Part shown: positions 29,932 through 38,547 of the stretch, in pieces
Layout: the number at the start of each line of letters is the position of its first letter
Position numbering within the stretch: the stretch's first letter is position 1
Assembly: GCA_001899315.1 (NCBI GenBank)
Contig: MOYA01000001.1
Location: forward strand, 807,105 to 871,104
Direction of reading: 5' to 3'
Length of the DNA stretch: 64,000 bases
From: Candidatus Obscuribacter phosphatis
GTDB lineage: Bacteria > Cyanobacteriota > Vampirovibrionia > Obscuribacterales > Obscuribacteraceae
The notes under the pieces: generated by a model
Told to the model about the DNA's origin: nothing
What the model saw: only the letters and a program-made list of their open reading frames with translations
Database searches by the model: none
Translations under genes and position numbers: made by a program

Positions 29932-31344
29932 GTGAGCAGTTTGGCACAAACCAGTTTGCTGGATCGGTTCTTTAGCCCGAAGGAAGGTAGCGCTAGCCGC
30001 AATTTCTTCCTTTCTGCGCTGTGGTGGTCGCTTCTCGGTATGGGAGCGGGAATGCTGGCGGCATCGGAATTTTCCATGCCCGACCTGATTCGCAACGTAC
30101 CGCAGTTGTCGATGCCTCACCTGCGTATGTGGCACGTCAATGCAGTTGCGGTTGGATGGCTGTCGATGGGTTATGTCGGCTCCATGTTCCACATGATTCC
30201 GACGCTTTGCAAAAACAAGCTTTACAGCGAGCGTCTGGGCAATTTCACCATGTGGGCTTGGAACCTGGTCATGACCGGTGCCTTCTGTACCTTGCTCAAC
30301 GGCAATACAGAAGGTCGTGAATATGCCGAGCTCGGTGCCATTCTCGATACTCTCGTTGTTGTGGGACTGGTGCTCACAGCTTTCAACCTATATATGACCA
30401 TCGTCAACCGTAAAGTGAAGAAGCTCTATGTGAGCCTTTGGTACTTCCTCGGTTCGCTCTTCTGGTTCCCTCTGGTCTGGGTTATCGGTCAACGTACCTT
30501 CGTTTCGCTACCCGGTCTTAATGACGCCATCATCGGTTGGTTCTACGGACACAATATTCTCGGTATGTGGTTCACCACCGTCGGTGTCGGTATGATGTAT
30601 TACCTAATTCCGCGATACACCAAAGCCCCTCTATATAGTCATGGTCTTTCCATGTTGGGCTTCTGGGGTATCGCTCTTTTCTATGCCCCTACCGGCACTC
30701 ACCACATCACTCAGTCGCCGGTACCGGAGTGGCTGAAGGCTATTGCCATCATTTCGTCAATCTTCCTTCTCGTTCCTGTGTTCACCGTTCTCACCAACTT
30801 CTTCATGTCGATGAAAGGTAAGTGGGGTCAGGTGGTCACTGATATGCCCTTGCGCTTCGCCGTTACATCTTGCATGTTCTACTTGGTCACTTGCACCCAG
30901 GGACCCTTCCAAGCTACTCGTTGGGTTAACTGGTATCTGCACTTCACCCAGTGGGTTGTCGGACACGCTCACTTGGCACTGCTCGGTACTTTCTCCTTCA
31001 TCCTCACCTCGGCTTTCTATTACAGTATGCCGAGATTGACCGGCAAGCAATGGCACTCCGAAGGCTTGATTCGCGCTCACTACTGGCTCAAGTTCTTGGG
31101 CTTCTTGCTGATGATGACTTCACTGACTACCGCCGGCTTGATTCAGTCTGCCGGTTGGGCGATGGGTATGCCTGTCGACCAGTGGGGCTTGCAGATCAGA
31201 CCTTACTGGTATCTGCGTACAGTGAGCGGCATCATGATCGTTCTGGGTCAAGCACTTTTTGCCTACAACGTCTACAAAACGCTATACACAAAGCCCAGTC
31301 TGGCTGATAGAAAAGCCAAGGCGGCTCGGGAGGTCAAAGTCTAA
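29932..31344 (+). CDS. ccoN: cbb3-type (C-family) cytochrome c oxidase subunit I
   Basis: 470 residues, about 12 membrane helices, close to the usual CcoN length. It is the catalytic haem-copper subunit that reduces oxygen. Low-spin haem and CuB ligands can be placed: H-V-N-A-V near residue 67, W-F-Y-G-H-N-I-L-G near 206, T-G-T-H-H-I near 265 and G-H-A-H-L-A-L-L-G near 345. The active-site tyrosine of the C family is expected in the Y-Y-L-I-P-R-Y region. Start GTG at 29932. The last base of its stop is the first of the ccoO start, so translation is coupled. First gene of the respiratory supercluster. Confidence 0.93.
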   Translation: MSSLAQTSLLDRFFSPKEGSASRNFFLSALWWSLLGMGAGMLAASEFSMPDLIRNVPQLSMPHLRMWHVNAVAVGWLSMGYVGSMFHMIPTLCKNKLYSERLGNFTMWAWNLVMTGAFCTLLNGNTEGREYAELGAILDTLVVVGLVLTAFNLYMTIVNRKVKKLYVSLWYFLGSLFWFPLVWVIGQRTFVSLPGLNDAIIGWFYGHNILGMWFTTVGVGMMYYLIPRYTKAPLYSHGLSMLGFWGIALFYAPTGTHHITQSPVPEWLKAIAIISSIFLLVPVFTVLTNFFMSMKGKWGQVVTDMPLRFAVTSCMFYLVTCTQGPFQATRWVNWYLHFTQWVVGHAHLALLGTFSFILTSAFYYSMPRLTGKQWHSEGLIRAHYWLKFLGFLLMMTSLTTAGLIQSAGWAMGMPVDQWGLQIRPYWYLRTVSGIMIVLGQALFAYNVYKTLYTKPSLADRKAKAAREVKV

Positions 31345-32288
31345 TGTACGGTTACAGGCTTGGTGCAATAGGTATTGTCACCACCTTCTTCATCATCATT
31401 TTCTCGACAGTGCTTATGCCGATGGTACTTTTCCAACCTAAGGCGAGCGGTCGTGGAAACGACTACAAGGCTATCGACCCTAAAATCGCCGATGCTGAAC
31501 GCGGTCGCAAAATCTATGTAAGAGAAGGTTGCTTCTATTGCCATACACAGTTCACTCGTATCCAAGACAGAGGCTATGGTCCTCTTGTTAAAGAAGGCGA
31601 CTATGTGTTTGAGACTCCGCACCAGTTGGGCACTGCCCGTACTGGTCCCGACCTCACCAACGAAGGTGGAAGATTCCCCTCCGAATGGCAAAAAGCACAC
31701 TTGATTGCACCCCGTGTGGTCAAGCCCGGCTCAATCATGCCCAGCTTCAGCTATCTATCTGAAGAAGATATGAATGACTTGGTCGCTTACATTCAGACCT
31801 TGGGTAACAAGCGTACAGTCACTACCTTTGTGCAAGCTCCCGACGAGTATCTGCTCACCACCCCACAAGGTCGTGGTCTAGCCGCTCGTAAGAGTGTCGA
31901 TACCAATTCTGATGCAGCCGCCAACGCCGGTCGCGGTATTTATACTCAGAACTGCGCTGCCTGCCACGGTCTCGAAGGTCGCGGCAATGGTCCTAACGCA
32001 ATCACTCTTGAGAAAAAGCCGCCGAACCTCACCCGCGACTACTACAAACAATATCCTGATGAGTTCTGGTACTACCGAATTTCTGAAGGTGTAGTCGGTA
32101 CCCGCATGCCCCGCTTCCAAGAAATTCTTTCTGAAGAGCAGCGCTGGTATCTGGTTGCCTACCTCAAGACTCTTCCCAAAGAGCACGAAGAGACCGTGGA
32201 TAGTCTCGATGACCTGAACGTTGCCGAGCCCATCCATCTGCCTAGACTGACTAGACAGCAATGGGAACCGCACCACGGTAAGGAATAG
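31344..32288 (+). CDS. ccoO: CcoO fused to an additional c-type cytochrome domain
   Basis: 314 residues. Residues 1-155 are CcoO-like: a membrane anchor helix (about 5-27), then E-G-C-F-Y-C-H-T-Q-F with the haem c site, the V-F-E-T-P-H-Q-L-G-T-A-R-T-G-P-D-L segment and the axial methionine in S-I-M-P-S-F. Residues 200-290 form a second cytochrome c domain with N-C-A-A-C-H-G and a later R-M-P-R-F methionine. Ordinary CcoO has only one haem, so this is a fusion that may replace part of CcoP. Both haems would lie outside the cytoplasmic membrane and pass electrons to CcoN. Confidence 0.9.
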   Translation: MYGYRLGAIGIVTTFFIIIFSTVLMPMVLFQPKASGRGNDYKAIDPKIADAERGRKIYVREGCFYCHTQFTRIQDRGYGPLVKEGDYVFETPHQLGTARTGPDLTNEGGRFPSEWQKAHLIAPRVVKPGSIMPSFSYLSEEDMNDLVAYIQTLGNKRTVTTFVQAPDEYLLTTPQGRGLAARKSVDTNSDAAANAGRGIYTQNCAACHGLEGRGNGPNAITLEKKPPNLTRDYYKQYPDEFWYYRISEGVVGTRMPRFQEILSEEQRWYLVAYLKTLPKEHEETVDSLDDLNVAEPIHLPRLTRQQWEPHHGKE

Positions 32289-32632: not shown

Positions 32633-32788
32633 ATGGCTGAAGAAGTCAAAAACACAGAAGAAGAGCACTACGAAGTAGTCTCCGAGTATCGAATCGGAGA
32701 AGGAGCGCCGCCGCCCTTCCTGGTCATCAGTTTCATTCTTATCTTTATATACGCAGCAGTATCCTGGATTCCCTTCTTTGGTTATTAA
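32633..32788 (+). CDS. Small one-helix membrane protein (CcoP N-terminal/CcoQ-like)
   Basis: 51 residues, ATG at 32633. A charged N-terminal third (E-E-E-H-Y-E) is followed by G-A-P-P-P-F and one hydrophobic helix (about 29-47). In CcoP proteins a similar P-P-x-hydrophobic helix anchors the dihaem part. Here the anchor may be a separate peptide while the dihaem part is the lipoprotein encoded next. An alternative is a CcoQ/CcoH-type accessory subunit. The position between ccoS and the dihaem cytochrome gene supports a structural role in the oxidase. Confidence 0.65.
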   Translation: MAEEVKNTEEEHYEVVSEYRIGEGAPPPFLVISFILIFIYAAVSWIPFFGY

Positions 32789-32795
32789 TAGGCAG

Positions 32796-33662
32796 ATGGC
32801 ACTTACTAAGGAAAATAAGTTGATTTCTCGACTCACATCGCCACAGGCGGTCAAAAGGGCACTGACCCTGGTTCTCTCGCTTTCGCTCTTTCCGGTTGTC
32901 AGCGCTCTATCTGGATGCTCGGACAGTCAGGTTAATGTAAAAGCCGATAGCGCCTTGGTTTCGACCAAAGCCACCGAAGGCAGTCACGAGCCAATCTGGC
33001 CAAACGATGACCCCTCTATTCCAGACGGCAAAGGTATCTATGAGAAGCAAAATTGCGCCTCATGCCACGGTGCCGATGGCAAGCCTGTGGAAGGCAAGAG
33101 CAAGATAGATTTCTCCGACAAAGCTTGGGCTCGCAAGCAGAAGCCGGTTGAGCAGTATGACTTCATCACTTTCGGTAAGAAAGCCGGTGAGACGGTTGAG
33201 CACCCTGTGGTGCGCGACAAGCTTCGCCCGAGCGAAATCTGGAACTTGGTCTTTTATGTGCGTTCGCTCTCGACACCTCCCTTGACTGATGCCGAGATAG
33301 CCGAACTAGACCCGGTCTTTGGTGCAAACTGTGCTGTTTGCCACGGCAAGAAGGGCTACGGTAATGGTCCTCTTATGAAAGCCAATACCCTGCAACCTTT
33401 GCCTGCCAACTTCCAATCTTTCCCTCGCTTCTATGACCGCGACGATGAGACCCTCTGGGACCACATCGCCAACGGTATCAAGTGGGAAGGCATGCCTAAT
33501 TTCTTAGGCAAAGAAGACAGACGTAACAAGGCTAAATTTGATGAGCCTTATATCTGGCGCATGGTCGGTTATATTCGCCACTTCCATGAAAGCAACAAAA
33601 CCGAGATAGCCACTCGTGAAGCAGCTAAGAAAGAAGCGGCAGAAGAAGCAAAATCTCACTAG
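32796..33662 (+). CDS. Dihaem cytochrome c lipoprotein (CcoP-like)
   Basis: 288 residues from the ATG at 32796. A signal peptide ends in a lipobox L-S-G-C (about residues 38-41), so the protein should be lipid-anchored outside the inner membrane. Two cytochrome c domains follow, with C-A-S-C-H-G (about 88-93) and C-A-V-C-H-G (about 179-184); candidate axial methionine G-M-P-N-F lies near 235. It would take the role of CcoP, bringing electrons to the oxidase, or of cytochrome c1, taking them from the Rieske protein, since no other c1 gene is present. A Lys/Ala/Glu-rich tail ends the protein. Confidence 0.85.
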   Translation: MALTKENKLISRLTSPQAVKRALTLVLSLSLFPVVSALSGCSDSQVNVKADSALVSTKATEGSHEPIWPNDDPSIPDGKGIYEKQNCASCHGADGKPVEGKSKIDFSDKAWARKQKPVEQYDFITFGKKAGETVEHPVVRDKLRPSEIWNLVFYVRSLSTPPLTDAEIAELDPVFGANCAVCHGKKGYGNGPLMKANTLQPLPANFQSFPRFYDRDDETLWDHIANGIKWEGMPNFLGKEDRRNKAKFDEPYIWRMVGYIRHFHESNKTEIATREAAKKEAAEEAKSH

Positions 33663-33708: not shown

Positions 33709-34278
33709 ATGACAGACGGCGTCAAACGAAGAGCCTTACTGAAGACGGTGGCAGCACTGCCCTTAGCCCTTACATTCGGGCTTTTGGCATCGCCTTTCTT
33801 GCGCATACTTTTGCCGACAAGAAGACCTCTCGATGTGCTCGGTGAATCAGATCAGCCCCTGGCTGAGCCCCCGATTCCTACATTTACCGACAAAGACTTC
33901 CCCAAAGATTGGACATGCTTGCCATTCATGTTTAACCAGAAGTATCTGGAATATAACCCTGAAGGCAAGGAAGTTCGCAAAATCCCCGGCTTCATCGTCA
34001 AATTGCCGAATGGCGATGTTGTTGCCTACAGCCGCATTTGTCCTCACCTTGGCTGTATCTTCAACTTCGTCGAAGATCCGGATGAATGCGCTAAGGGTTA
34101 CAACTTCAAACCCAATGGTCCGGTGTTTGCCTGCCCGTGCCATTTGAGCGTTTACGACATTGCCCAGGCTGGAAAAGTGGTGAGCGGTCCCGCTCCTCGT
34201 CCTCCGAGAAAATTCGAAGTGAAGAAAGAAGGGGACAGCTACAAGGTGGTCGCATTGGAGGCTGGTTCAATTGCCTAG
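33709..34278 (+). CDS. Rieske [2Fe-2S] protein of a bc-type complex
   Basis: 189 residues. The N-terminus has K-R-R-A-L-L-K-T and a hydrophobic helix, a Tat-like signal anchor as usual for Rieske proteins. The cluster is held by C-P-H-L-G-C (about residues 111-116) and C-P-C-H-L-S (about 143-148), each giving one Cys and one His ligand plus the disulphide pair. The usual G after C-P-C-H is L here, which could shift the redox potential. A long insertion lies between the two ligand boxes. Its stop overlaps the cytochrome b start by eight bases, so the two are translationally coupled. Confidence 0.9.
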   Translation: MTDGVKRRALLKTVAALPLALTFGLLASPFLRILLPTRRPLDVLGESDQPLAEPPIPTFTDKDFPKDWTCLPFMFNQKYLEYNPEGKEVRKIPGFIVKLPNGDVVAYSRICPHLGCIFNFVEDPDECAKGYNFKPNGPVFACPCHLSVYDIAQAGKVVSGPAPRPPRKFEVKKEGDSYKVVALEAGSIA

Positions 34279-36172
34279 TACAACTAACGACAGAAGTCTT
34301 GAAGGCGTCCTCACTTCGGTTGGGGACTGGCTTAAGATACGCATAAAGAACATCGATATCTTCGATGAGCATCACCAGGAAGAAGCAAAGACGAATCCCT
34401 TTTATGCTCTGGGACCGATCTTTTATCTAGTCTGGTTTACGGTCATGGCAACCGGTTTGCTTTTGATCATGTGGTATGTGCCCACAAAGTCTGCCGCCTT
34501 TGATTCCATCCTTAATATTCAGAATGGTATTCCGATGGGCGCCCTAATCAGGGGGATGCACAAATACGGTGCAGACGCCATGATTATCGCTGCCACAATG
34601 CGTCTCTATCGCATGTTTATTATGGCGGACTTCAAGCCTTCCAAAGAATTCAACATCATCATCGCCCTTATTACTCTGCTTCTAGCAATGTACTCCGGTC
34701 TGACCGGCTACCTCCTGATCTGGAACCAGAGGGCATTCTGGGCGACAAAGGTGTTCGCTACCTTCCCGACCTATATGGACCAATTTGCTGTGATGGGCGA
34801 TTACTATTTGCCCCTCTACAAATCACTGCACTTAGGTTGGAACACAGCCGAAGTGCTACTCGGCGGTGGTGCCGCCATCACGCAGAATACAATCACCCGA
34901 TTCTTCTCTCTGCACTTGGCTTTCTCTCTTATCCCGCTCATTCTTGTCGAACTCTACTTCTACAAGAATGCTTATAAGAGAATCCCGCTTAACTGGATCA
35001 AACGCAGCATCATTCTATTGATGCTCGCCTTCGTTGCCATCGCTCTGCCGGCGGCTCAAGGCTCTCGGTCTGATCCGGATGTCACCCCTCTGCCGATTTT
35101 GTCCGACTGGTACTTCCTTGGCTTGTATCAGATGTACAAATATCTAGAGCCGGTTGTTGCCACCTACATAACCCTAGTCATTCCGCTATCAGTGTTTGCT
35201 TTGCCTTTCATGGACAGCTATATCACTGGTCCCGAGAAAGACATAATGAAGCGTCCTTTCATGCTGATGATGACCTTCATGGGTTTTGTTTGCTGGATAG
35301 TGTTCTCGGTATTGATTATCGTCAACATCGCCAACATTCACACCGACCCGCCCTATTGGAGATCTTTCCTCTATCTGACAATTGACATCGGCATCATCTG
35401 GCAGCTCTATCTCATCTCTACAAACAAAGATTTGAAATGGAAAGCTAAACAGACCGTTGCCTGCGCCATCATGTTAGGTCTGGCTCTGGTTCAGTGTTTT
35501 TGGTCATGGGTCTATGACTACATGGCTAAGACCGAAATGTTCATCGACCCGCTTGGCCATGCTGCTCTATATAGTCTTGGTCGCGGAGCGATGGGTGATT
35601 CGGCTGAGCAAGTGGAAACACTGGTGCGTAAGATGCACCCGCCATCTGGCGAGAAGCCTGTCAACCAAGAATACTGGAACCTGCATGTGCTACTCGACCC
35701 GGGCTATATGGCACGCATCGGCAGCCCTGCCGGCAAGGAAGATCTAGAAGCGCTGAAGAAACTTTGCGTCGAAACCAAGACACCTCTCGATTTCGTAGTC
35801 AAAGCCATTCCCACCTTCGAAACTCCAATGGGTCAAAATGGTGCCTTCCTTATCAATGAGAACGGCAAGAAAGTAAGCATGCTCTCTGATAAAGAGAAGG
35901 GTGCCCACCCGACCTATCACGGTCTTGTCGACTTCATGGTCAACAACCGTTGGTGCTGGGACTATTGCACTCTCGTCGACAGAATGAAGGGTGGAGTAGT
36001 GAAAGGCTATCCGATGAGTGTGCCTGACGTTGATTGGTACTGGATCATTGGTGGCATTGTCTCTGCAGTTTATGCTGCCTTCGTTATGGTGCAGTGCAAA
36101 CAAGCGCAGTCTCAAGCCGAGCCGCCCAAGCCGCAGCCCGAGCCAAAACCGGCGCCAGCCTCTGGTAGCTAG
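34271..36172 (+). CDS. Long cytochrome b lacking both bH haem histidines
   Basis: 633 residues from a TTG start inside the Rieske stop region. The N-terminal part is cytochrome b-like, followed by helices of the subunit IV part and a C-terminal extension of about 200 residues with a last helix and a Pro/Gln/Glu tail. In helix B the first ligand is His97, but the partner 14 residues later is Arg111. In helix D His215 is present, but 14 residues later stands Tyr229. So the pair for the outer (bL) haem is kept and the pair for the inner (bH) haem is lost. The Qo motif P-E-W-Y reads S-D-W-Y. It may work only as partner of the second cytochrome b. Confidence 0.9.
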   Translation: MPSTTNDRSLEGVLTSVGDWLKIRIKNIDIFDEHHQEEAKTNPFYALGPIFYLVWFTVMATGLLLIMWYVPTKSAAFDSILNIQNGIPMGALIRGMHKYGADAMIIAATMRLYRMFIMADFKPSKEFNIIIALITLLLAMYSGLTGYLLIWNQRAFWATKVFATFPTYMDQFAVMGDYYLPLYKSLHLGWNTAEVLLGGGAAITQNTITRFFSLHLAFSLIPLILVELYFYKNAYKRIPLNWIKRSIILLMLAFVAIALPAAQGSRSDPDVTPLPILSDWYFLGLYQMYKYLEPVVATYITLVIPLSVFALPFMDSYITGPEKDIMKRPFMLMMTFMGFVCWIVFSVLIIVNIANIHTDPPYWRSFLYLTIDIGIIWQLYLISTNKDLKWKAKQTVACAIMLGLALVQCFWSWVYDYMAKTEMFIDPLGHAALYSLGRGAMGDSAEQVETLVRKMHPPSGEKPVNQEYWNLHVLLDPGYMARIGSPAGKEDLEALKKLCVETKTPLDFVVKAIPTFETPMGQNGAFLINENGKKVSMLSDKEKGAHPTYHGLVDFMVNNRWCWDYCTLVDRMKGGVVKGYPMSVPDVDWYWIIGGIVSAVYAAFVMVQCKQAQSQAEPPKPQPEPKPAPASGS

Positions 36173-36174
36173 TC

Positions 36175-36579
36175 GTGACCTCAGAGAACGAAAGCAATCT
36201 GGATAACGAAAGTAGTAAGGAAAAGAACAAGAAGAAAATGAATTTGAGCGCGGTTCTGAAAGGAAGAAATGCCAACACCGATAAAGTCGGTGCCGGCACC
36301 GCGCCCAAATTCAAAGTTCGCTTCTCTATCAAGTTGTCTGTTTTTGTTCTCGCCACATTAGCTCTTTCCTGGTTTTTCGAAGGATTCAGACAGGTTAATG
36401 AAGCTCCTACCGCCTGGGGACTAGCTCTCCTTTTCGGTGGCACCACCCTGACCATCATTCTGGTTGGTGTCTACGGCTTCTTTATCTATGCTGAGGAGAG
36501 AGCCAAGGGGTCGCCGATTCGCAATATTCCGCTATTTGATCGTTGGTATAGACATTTCACTGAAAAGGGAGATAAGTAA
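36175..36579 (+). CDS. Small membrane protein of the respiratory cluster
   Basis: 134 residues, GTG start three bases behind the cytochrome b stop. The first 45 residues are polar and very rich in Lys, Asn, Ser and Glu. Two hydrophobic helices follow (about 54-70 and 82-103), then a basic C-terminus (F-D-R-W-Y-R-H-F). I do not recognise the family. Its position between the two cytochrome b genes makes an accessory subunit of the bc-like complex likely. Confidence 0.65.
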   Translation: MTSENESNLDNESSKEKNKKKMNLSAVLKGRNANTDKVGAGTAPKFKVRFSIKLSVFVLATLALSWFFEGFRQVNEAPTAWGLALLFGGTTLTIILVGVYGFFIYAEERAKGSPIRNIPLFDRWYRHFTEKGDK

Positions 36580-36583
36580 AGTC

Positions 36584-36937
36584 GTGGGTAAGGGAATAAA
36601 CAGCATCCTCGCCATCGTCGGCGGTGTCCTGTGTGTATTAATCACCCTGGCTATGCCTTGGGCTGAGCTTGGTATGGATGCCTCTTTTCAGAATTGGCCC
36701 GAGTGGTTGAAATGGCTTTCCATCAACCTTAATGTGCCGCTTCCTGATTATGCTCATATGTCCAACTATGCCTCGGAGTGGACAGCGCATCTCAAGAAAG
36801 CCGGTGCTGAGAGCCGTTATGGCGACTATGCCTATGCCTTATTGATGGGCTTAGCCATGTTCGCATCCGCCATTGGTATCGCTGCTGTAGGCAGAGAAGA
36901 AGGCGAAGAAAAAACTGTATTGCCGGTGAAGAAGTAA
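36584..36937 (+). CDS. Small two-helix membrane protein of the respiratory cluster
   Basis: 117 residues from a GTG at 36584, just behind the previous stop. A longer frame opens at 36464 but would overlap the preceding gene by 116 bases, so the later start is preferred. Helices at about 7-25 and 84-103 frame an extracytoplasmic loop of about 55 residues rich in Trp and Tyr (N-W-P-E-W-L-K-W-L). The C-terminus is acidic. No family recognised. Probably an accessory subunit bridging the two unlike cytochrome b proteins. Confidence 0.62.
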   Translation: MGKGINSILAIVGGVLCVLITLAMPWAELGMDASFQNWPEWLKWLSINLNVPLPDYAHMSNYASEWTAHLKKAGAESRYGDYAYALLMGLAMFASAIGIAAVGREEGEEKTVLPVKK

Positions 36938-36962: not shown

Positions 36963-38120
36963 ATGTACTCGTCGATACCGAAGGGCATGACCGATCTGAC
37001 TCTAGCAATAGAGAAAGCGGTAAACGCCGTTCTAACCAATAAGTACAACCCCTTTTATTACCACGGTGCTCTACCGCAGTTTTATTTGTGGGTTTTGTTT
37101 CTGTCTGGTTTGTTGCTATTTGCCTATTACATTCCGACAATCGACAATGCTTACTTCTCTGAGAACCTGGTCAACGCCTGGACCTCAGTAGACTACATCA
37201 CTGACACTCTGCCTTATGGTGCCGTGGTCAGGGCTATACACCGCTATGCCGGCGATGCCATGGTTATCACCATCGTCTTGCACGCCTTGCGTGTTTGGAT
37301 TACCGACCGCTATCGTCAGTACCGCTGGTTCCAGTGGGTGAGCGGCATCGTTCTTTTCCTTATGGTCATGTTCATCGGTCAGACCGGTTATTATCTGGTT
37401 TGGGACGAGCGCTCCCTCATCCTCACCCGTATGACTTCGACCGCTCTAGAAGCTATTCCCTTTATCGGACCCGGGCTCAAGACCTGGTTCTTGAACGGTG
37501 GAGCGATAACCAACCTGACACTCTCCAACTTCCTTTTCATTCATATTGGTTTTTCCTTCTCTCTACTTTTCGGTCTCTGGTTGCACTATGTGCGCATGAC
37601 CAGACCGGTAATTACACCTCCGCCTGCCATCAACTATATGCTTGTGGCTGTGCTCTTGGTCTTTGTCTTCTTGGTTCCGGTCACTTCCGGCAAGATGGCT
37701 GACATCAACACCCAACCGACAAGCTTTGAGATCGACTGGTTCTTCCTCTGGCCCTATTACCTGCTCGCCCACGTGGACATCACCACCTATTGGGTCTTGA
37801 TTATTGGTGGTTCAGTGGCTCTCTGCTTGATTCCTTTGCCCAGTCTCTACAAGGCTGCACATCCGGTCGAGCCTGCCGAAGTGGTGCTCAATAAGTGCAC
37901 CGGATGTTCGATGTGTGCCGCAGACTGTCCTTATCAGGCTATTGAAATGGTACCGGCTCCCTCCGGTTCACGCTTCAAGAAACTGGCTACAGTCAAGGCT
38001 TATCGTTGCTCCGGCTGCGGAGTCTGTGTGGGGGCTTGTGCCTTCGACGCCATCGACCTGCCTAACTTGCTCGATACCGATGTGACCGCCAAGATCAAGG
38101 CGCTCGCTGAAGCCCAGTAA
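36963..38120 (+). CDS. Cytochrome b fused to a 2[4Fe-4S] ferredoxin domain
   Basis: 385 residues. Residues 1-300 are a cytochrome b with about eight helices. All four haem ligands are present: His93 and His107 in helix B, His194 and His208 in helix D. The Qo-site region reads I-D-W-F in place of P-E-W-Y. Residues 310-370 form a bacterial ferredoxin domain with C-T-G-C-S-M-C-A-A-D-C-P and C-S-G-C-G-V-C-V-G-A-C, enough for two [4Fe-4S] clusters, expected on the cytoplasmic side. This gives a route between the quinone pool and cytoplasmic low-potential carriers. An MvhD-like gene follows directly. GGGAG precedes the ATG. Confidence 0.9.
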   Translation: MYSSIPKGMTDLTLAIEKAVNAVLTNKYNPFYYHGALPQFYLWVLFLSGLLLFAYYIPTIDNAYFSENLVNAWTSVDYITDTLPYGAVVRAIHRYAGDAMVITIVLHALRVWITDRYRQYRWFQWVSGIVLFLMVMFIGQTGYYLVWDERSLILTRMTSTALEAIPFIGPGLKTWFLNGGAITNLTLSNFLFIHIGFSFSLLFGLWLHYVRMTRPVITPPPAINYMLVAVLLVFVFLVPVTSGKMADINTQPTSFEIDWFFLWPYYLLAHVDITTYWVLIIGGSVALCLIPLPSLYKAAHPVEPAEVVLNKCTGCSMCAADCPYQAIEMVPAPSGSRFKKLATVKAYRCSGCGVCVGACAFDAIDLPNLLDTDVTAKIKALAEAQ

Positions 38121-38157: not shown

Positions 38158-38547
38158 ATGTCCGAAAAGAAGGTAATAACGCTAATTTGTGAAAGGGCTG
38201 CCGATCTAGATTCGGCATGCAGCGCCAGCGGCGAAGTTAAAGACGTCGAAGGCCTGCACGTGGTCAAACTACCATGCAGTGGAATGATTCAGCCCCTCAT
38301 GATTGAAGCCGCGCTGAAAGCCGGAGCCGCTGGAGTGATTGTCACCGGCTGTCAGATTGGCGATTGCTATTACCGCGAAGGTAATCGCATGATTAGAGAA
38401 AGACTGCTCGGTGAGCGTACACCTGGCTTGAAGAAGAATGTCGACAGAAGACGCATTCTTGCTTTGTGGCTTTCTCGCCCACAGAAAGAAAGATTCTTGT
38501 CTGAGGCGAAAGAGTTCGTCAACTATGTGCGTAAGCTCACAGACTAA
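38158..38547 (+). CDS. MvhD/FlpD-type iron-sulfur electron-transfer protein
   Basis: 129 residues. It resembles MvhD, the small [2Fe-2S] protein that passes electrons between hydrogenase or formate dehydrogenase and heterodisulfide reductase in methanogens and other anaerobes. Family segments are L-P-C-S-G, then V-T-G-C-Q-I-G-D-C-Y-Y-R-E-G-N and a late cluster of charged residues. The usual N-terminal C-N-W-C is changed to I-C-E-R-A, with other Cys nearby (S-A-C-S), so the cluster may be ligated differently. No HdrA or hydrogenase is near. It lies 37 bases behind the cytochrome b-ferredoxin gene, its likely partner. Confidence 0.82.
   Translation: MSEKKVITLICERAADLDSACSASGEVKDVEGLHVVKLPCSGMIQPLMIEAALKAGAAGVIVTGCQIGDCYYREGNRMIRERLLGERTPGLKKNVDRRRILALWLSRPQKERFLSEAKEFVNYVRKLTD

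Follow-up and report, generated by a model that had tools for sequence, protein, structure and literature searches.

Complementary loss of bH ligands and Qo residues in two cytochromes b of a Candidatus Obscuribacter phosphatis operon, and a proposed asymmetric Rieske/cytochrome b complex

An operon with two cytochromes b

The window analyzed here is a stretch of 64,000 nt from contig MOYA01000001.1 of Candidatus Obscuribacter phosphatis, and all coordinates are window positions. It harbors an operon in which ccoN, a fusion of ccoO with a cytochrome c gene, a dihaem cytochrome c gene, and a Rieske gene are followed by a first cytochrome b (c1), two small hydrophobic open reading frames, a second cytochrome b (c2), and flpD. 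The pairing of complexes III and IV in Melainabacteria (Obscuribacter) is already known; the operon described there is of the same type, with a cbb3 oxidase beside petB- and petC-like genes annotated as cytochrome b6f subunits, and the available part of that report mentions neither missing ligands nor a Qo loss in the partner nor FlpD (PMC6349859). The genes of the operon are as follows:

29932..31344, + strand: CcoN, catalytic subunit of a cbb3 oxidase, the operon's terminal oxidase (Pfam COX1, 4.5e-79)
31344..32288, + strand: fusion of CcoO with a second cytochrome c domain (Pfam FixO, 1e-30; Cytochrom_C)
32778..33662, + strand: dihaem cytochrome c, probable lipoprotein (two cytochrome c stretches; CASCH, CAVCH)
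33709..34278, + strand: Rieske [2Fe-2S] protein (Pfam Rieske, 8.2e-10; both cluster boxes, CPHLGC and CPCH)
34271..36172, + strand: c1, with bL ligands only, Qo site kept and bH ligands absent (Pfam Cytochrome_B, 2.8e-20)
36175..36579, + strand: small hydrophobic protein between c1 and c2, family-specific and in the same place in relatives
36464..36937, + strand: second small hydrophobic protein, its open reading frame overlapping the first
36963..38120, + strand: c2, with four His ligands, a degenerate Qo site and a C-terminal 2x[4Fe-4S] domain
38158..38547, + strand: FlpD/MvhD-like [2Fe-2S] protein (Pfam FlpD, PF02662, 7.3e-21)

The Rieske gene is encoded together with cytochrome b, as in canonical bc1 and b6f complexes, and the dihaem cytochrome c is the likely acceptor of electrons from the Rieske protein. 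The order Rieske–c1–c2–flpD is present in 71 of 80 loci, the other nine being cut by contig ends, and the linkage of c1 to c2 is strictly 1:1 in the uncut loci (71/71), which makes the second cytochrome b a constant operon partner of c1. ccoN is found in the same order in 60 of the 80 loci. The two overlapping hydrophobic open reading frames between c1 and c2 are kept across the order and have no match in Pfam or NCBIfam; the true start of the second probably lies inside the annotated frame.

The c1 gene starts with TTG, about 10 nt downstream of a GGAGG-like site, and encodes 633 amino acids. Its product scores above the cut-off of the Pfam families PF00033 and PF13631, which assigns it to the cytochrome b family, and is predicted to have the cytochrome b fold: an AlphaFold2 model matches the cytochromes b of bc1 complexes with Z scores of about 20–24 and an rmsd of 3–5 Å over about 320 residues, consistent with the claim of the initial annotation that the rest of the fold is conserved. 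With a mean pLDDT of 67 and a weak C-terminal tail, the c1 model is too weak for haem-site geometry, as is that of c2, which has the cytochrome b fold but a poor ferredoxin part (pLDDT 73.5).

Loss of the bH ligands in c1 and of the Qo site in c2

The initial annotation held that helices B and D of c1 each retain the ligand of the P-side (bL) haem, whereas the two ligands of the N-side (bH) haem are replaced. A profile alignment to solved cytochrome b6 bears this out. The motifs H97-x13-R111 (helix B) and H215-x13-Y229 (helix D) place His97 and His215 on the bL histidines of the two helices, and Arg111 and Tyr229 on the bH histidines. Conservation was assessed across 111 non-identical c1 from at least five bacterial groups, with identities to the c1 of the window down to 35%; the residues discussed below are:

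34559..34561, + strand: c1 His97, helix B bL ligand (His in 111/111)
34601..34603, + strand: c1 Arg111, helix B bH-ligand position (R 99, K 12 of 111)
34739..34744, + strand: c1 Trp157-Ala158, Qo cd1 region (both 111/111)
34913..34915, + strand: c1 His215, helix D bL ligand (His in 111/111)
34949..34957, + strand: c1 Glu227 and Tyr229, the latter at the helix D bH-ligand position (227: E 111/111; 229: Y80 F15 R10 L4 M1 H1)
35102..35119, + strand: c1 SDWYFL, Qo ef-loop motif equivalent to PEWY (invariant, 111/111)
37239..37283, + strand: c2 His93 and His107, helix B ligands (122/122)
37422..37424, + strand: c2 Leu154 (L91 I23 V4 across c2), at a Qo position where canonical cytochromes b carry Ala/Gly
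37542..37586, + strand: c2 His194 and His208, helix D ligands (110/110 readable)
37896..38039, + strand: c2, eight invariant Cys of two [4Fe-4S] clusters (C312–C359)

The helix B bH histidine is absent from all 111 c1 and that of helix D from 110, so that both bH ligand positions are lost in 110 of 111 proteins, which are left with the bL pair instead of two pairs of histidines. The initial annotation had named relatives with intact ligands as evidence that would speak against such a loss. For helix B there are none; for helix D there is one, a c1 from a metagenome-assembled genome (MAG) with a Symbiobacterium title (L126:9956-11152), which keeps the histidine there and has Arg in helix B. This protein, which shows that the helix B ligand can be absent alone, is possibly an intermediate in ligand loss. 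The glycine on the bH side of helix C, present in all canonical cytochromes b (32/32) and all c2 (122/122), is retained in only 28 of 111 c1 and otherwise relaxed to A, L, C, S, or T. Both helix A glycines are retained in c1, as is the Arg that canonical cytochromes b carry three residues after the helix B bH ligand.

Several other causes were considered and rejected. A sequencing or assembly error does not account for the same residues in 111 distinct genes. The participation of other histidines of helices B and D, the other objection foreseen in the initial annotation, is excluded because only those at positions 97 and 215 are invariant among 13 diverse c1. Decay to a pseudogene disagrees with the presence of Arg or Lys at position 111 in all c1, the invariance of Glu227, and a dN/dS of about 0.06, which together uphold the earlier suggestion of adaptation. 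Compared with the same gene of a congener, dN is 0.09 and dS 1.4 for c1, close to the values for c2 (0.06 and 1.0), with dS near saturation in both cases. Haem cn was likewise rejected as a substitute electron carrier because the Cys for its covalent attachment on the N side of helix A, at the position occupied in b6, is present neither in c1 (mostly A/L/S/T/Q) nor in c2 (Y/F), which sets both proteins apart from b6f.

It is very unlikely that c1 binds a second b haem via non-His ligands, be it Arg/Lys111, Tyr229, or Glu227. Although Lys or Tyr ligate haem in some proteins and the helix A glycines are kept, Arg is not a usual haem ligand, position 229 varies over Y, F, R, L, and M, and the bH-side glycine of helix C is relaxed. 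Glu227 is two residues away from the ligand position and would face elsewhere on a regular helix. Since it would thus face away from residue 229, a salt bridge between Arg111 and Glu227 that fills the bH pocket of c1 is a mere guess. Glu227 may instead sit at the dimer interface; in c2, the same column is occupied by an invariant Trp206.

The losses in c2 are of a different kind. All c2 readable at these positions keep the four histidines, as do the canonical cytochromes b of the same alignment. The column of c1 Ala158, a residue that we take to correspond to Gly158 of Rhodobacter capsulatus cytochrome b because of the conserved W-A/G motif, is occupied by L, I, or V in 118 of 119 c2. The column of c1 Trp157 is mostly non-aromatic in c2, where nothing of a PEWY-like motif is conserved except an Asp. 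When columns were scanned without bias for those that tell c1 and c2 apart, seven emerged, R111/H107, A158/L154, and E227/W206 among them. In R. capsulatus, the mutation G158W has been used to inactivate the Qo site (PMC4330944). To judge from these residues, the losses are complementary: c1 keeps Qo and lacks bH and Qi, and c2 keeps bH and lacks Qo. The Qo motif of c1 reads SDWY instead of PEWY, and quinol-oxidizing activity of c1 is assumed. Residue 34 of c2, next to the bH-side helix A glycine, is His (91/122) or Thr (28/122), whereas canonical cytochromes b mostly have Leu; the His is possibly an extra ligand or a Qi residue. A novel haem between two His of a cytochrome b dimer is featured in the models of anammox complexes, as presented in the available part of that study (PMC12954380).

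Electron transfer in a putative c1/c2 heterodimer

The best explanation of this pattern, and a likely one, is an obligate asymmetric Rieske/cytochrome b complex that is built on a c1/c2 heterodimer with divided labor. Quinol, probably menaquinol, would be oxidized at the Qo site of c1 only. One electron would pass via the Rieske cluster and the dihaem cytochrome c to the cbb3 oxidase; the other, the low-potential electron, would go from Qo(c1) to bL(c1) and, as that subunit lacks bH, would have to move over to bL(c2) in the partner before it reaches bH(c2). With c1 lacking bH and Qi and c2 lacking Qo, this would be the single route left for the low-potential electron. From bH(c2), it could exit on the cytoplasmic side to quinone, which would amount to an ordinary Q-cycle distributed across the two subunits, or it could be passed by the c2 ferredoxin domain and FlpD to some soluble partner. 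A heterodimer of c1 with an intact copy had already been proposed in the initial annotation, together with a Q-cycle broken on one side. Constant pairing makes the heterodimer the natural reading, but the partner is itself degenerate at Qo, and two complementary losses most likely create one asymmetric unit and not a one-sided defect.

Such an arrangement has a precedent in the laboratory. In engineered, cross-inactivated bc1 dimers of R. capsulatus and R. sphaeroides (B-B and BS-B fusions), where bH is knocked out in one half (H212N) and Qo blocked in the other (G158W), electrons must go from bL via bL to bH, and the transfer between the bL haems occurs at catalytic rate (PMC4330944). In c1, the same bH ligand pair is changed as in the H212N half, and in c2 the residue that aligns with G158; at the level of sequence, one half without bH and another without Qo correspond to the make-up of a cross-inactivated heterodimer. 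By analogy, the same bL–bL route may operate in c1/c2, and the pair is best read as a natural counterpart of the Rhodobacter dimers. Unlike these point mutants of one protein, c1 and c2 are two anciently diverged genes, accompanied by a ferredoxin domain and FlpD. The pair shares the cytochrome b fold, the bL ligands, the Rieske protein, a periplasmic cytochrome c, and a Qo-like loop with canonical bc1 and b6f complexes; by contrast, the latter are symmetric, with PEWY and a bH in each monomer, whereas each monomer of c1/c2 would have a single role and c1, lacking canonical bH ligands, appears not to hold the full chain of bL and bH haems.

Several observations count against this reading. A single Rieske gene is present, the Qo motif of c1 departs from PEWY, one c1 has retained the helix D histidine, the helix A glycines and the downstream Arg of helix B persist in c1, and the residue at position 229 (Y, H) could lie near a haem in some members. 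It is also conceivable, if rather unlikely, that c1 and c2 belong to separate complexes, either two homodimers or a c1–Rieske and a c2–FlpD unit, that merely share an operon. Such a separation would agree with the resemblance of c2 to the membrane anchors of other redox enzymes. However, a c1 homodimer would have bL haems without an exit and c2 would have no Qo, and the strict 1:1 linkage and the complementary losses would go unexplained.

The ferredoxin domain of c2 and flpD, which the initial annotation did not include, suggest an additional electron route on the cytoplasmic side of the putative heterodimer. The tail of c2 matches residues 572–643 of HdrA2 and FlpD matches residues 649–772 of the same family, both far below the whole-protein cut-off, as expected for a part; because of this collinearity, the pair corresponds to the C-terminal ferredoxin of HdrA plus MvhD, placed on a cytochrome b. 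FlpD also matches the MvhD structure 5odc_D (1.8e-15), and its cluster cysteines (C11, C40, C65, C70) are invariant, as expected for a member of the family. A separate HdrA partner was rejected on the strength of a genome search for FlpD, which gave no second copy; because flpD is present in a single copy, its product is expected to serve the Rieske/c1/c2 complex. In the HdrABC-MvhAGD complex of methanogens, it is MvhD that hands electrons from the hydrogenase on to HdrA. Unlike HdrABC-MvhAGD and HdrA2, where the homologous module accompanies a flavin-bearing HdrA core, the operon has it attached to a cytochrome b, and neither that core nor HdrB or HdrC was detected among the operon genes examined.

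If electrons leave through this module, the low-potential electron would travel from bH(c2) over the two [4Fe-4S] clusters and the [2Fe-2S] cluster of FlpD to a cytoplasmic acceptor, and quinol-dependent electron bifurcation would be paid for by the reduction of O2. This is a refinement of the heterodimer and not an alternative to it, and we hold it tentatively. It draws on the collinearity with the electron-transfer part of HdrA2, the invariance of all cluster cysteines in the c2 ferredoxin and FlpD, the single flpD copy, and the presence of futalosine-pathway menaquinone genes in the genome, which makes a low-potential quinone likely. A comparable proposal exists for anammox bacteria: in the available part of that study, the complexes Kuste4569-4574 and Kustd1480-1485 have a Rieske/cytochrome b core joined by an NAD(P) oxidoreductase and by an FeS wire on the N side, and the low-potential electron is proposed to reach a cytoplasmic acceptor (PMC12954380). 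The models in the same part are of homodimers that contain both bP and bN haems, along with SUIV-like subunits and multihaem cytochromes, and a cytochrome b without ligands is not described there (PMC12954380). Against bifurcation speak the absence of an NAD, F420, or flavin subunit from the operon, the possibility that c2 retains a Qi site, and the role of the module as electron input in HdrA-MvhD.

The reverse direction, in which electrons from a soluble cytoplasmic dehydrogenase enter at FlpD, run over the [4Fe-4S] clusters to bH(c2), and end on quinone, would merge a dehydrogenase port with a Q-cycle. We hold this reading about as tentatively. The match of FlpD to MvhD is in its favor, and so is the need for other entry points in a genome where the NADH-binding subunit of complex I (NuoF, PF01512) was not found despite the presence of a respiratory chain. 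Yet no dehydrogenase gene adjoins flpD, and the loss of bH in c1 and of Qo in c2 would be left unexplained. Output explains the removal of bH and Qi from c1 better than input does, because a second bH/Qi would leak the electron into the quinone pool. The full combination, a natural asymmetric heterodimer, fixed long ago, with obligatory bL–bL crossing, whose quinone-based bifurcation would supply a soluble acceptor in the cytoplasm by way of the c2 ferredoxin and FlpD, is offered with due reserve as a possibility.

The open-access literature yielded no report of the missing bH ligands, of a complementary loss of Qo, or of the c2–ferredoxin–FlpD arrangement, and nothing on complex III of Vampirovibrio. 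Electron crossing between monomers during normal bc1 catalysis has so far been debated mostly on the basis of engineered dimers; in a natural enzyme whose only exit from Qo lies across the dimer, bL–bL transfer would be obligatory and could be tested directly. Such an enzyme would illustrate how a symmetric complex can give rise to two specialized subunits, tie complex III to the HdrA/FlpD modules for electron transfer in anaerobic bifurcating enzymes, and alter current views on complex III in the non-photosynthetic relatives of Cyanobacteria. If bifurcation via FlpD holds true, a respiratory complex III would generate low-potential reductant.

Distribution and lineage-specific features

All c1 fall into one clade and all c2 into another, both distinct from the canonical cytochromes b, which indicates that the division of roles is old. 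c1 is present in nearly every genome searched within the family and order of the source. In an even sample of its phylum, the high-scoring c1 matches all fall into its own class and the others score like canonical b6. A scan of named genomes located the complex in Obscuribacterales, Caenarcanales, Vampirovibrionales, Holophagaceae (Acidobacteria), the Symbiobacterium-titled MAG, and a MAG of Deinococcales. When only matches above about 300 bits were counted, c1 was recovered from 4 of 247 genomes in the Acidobacteria sample, 4 of 111 in the Deinococcales sample, and 1 of 299 in the Symbiobacterium sample. One small phylum (G063), to which this threshold was not applied, has c1-type matches in 38 of 43 genomes, two of them weak or partial.

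Individual lineages show further peculiarities. In locus L129 of the small phylum (further loci L150-L179), the complex adjoins genes for cytochrome c maturation, and no cbb3 oxidase was found. In the c1 of Caenarcanales-like loci (L045-L048), the cd loop is enlarged by a long insertion, and position 111 is Lys instead of Arg. In Obscuribacterales, residues ~390–580 of c1 form a long, poorly conserved stretch before the last helix, which is short or absent in other c1.
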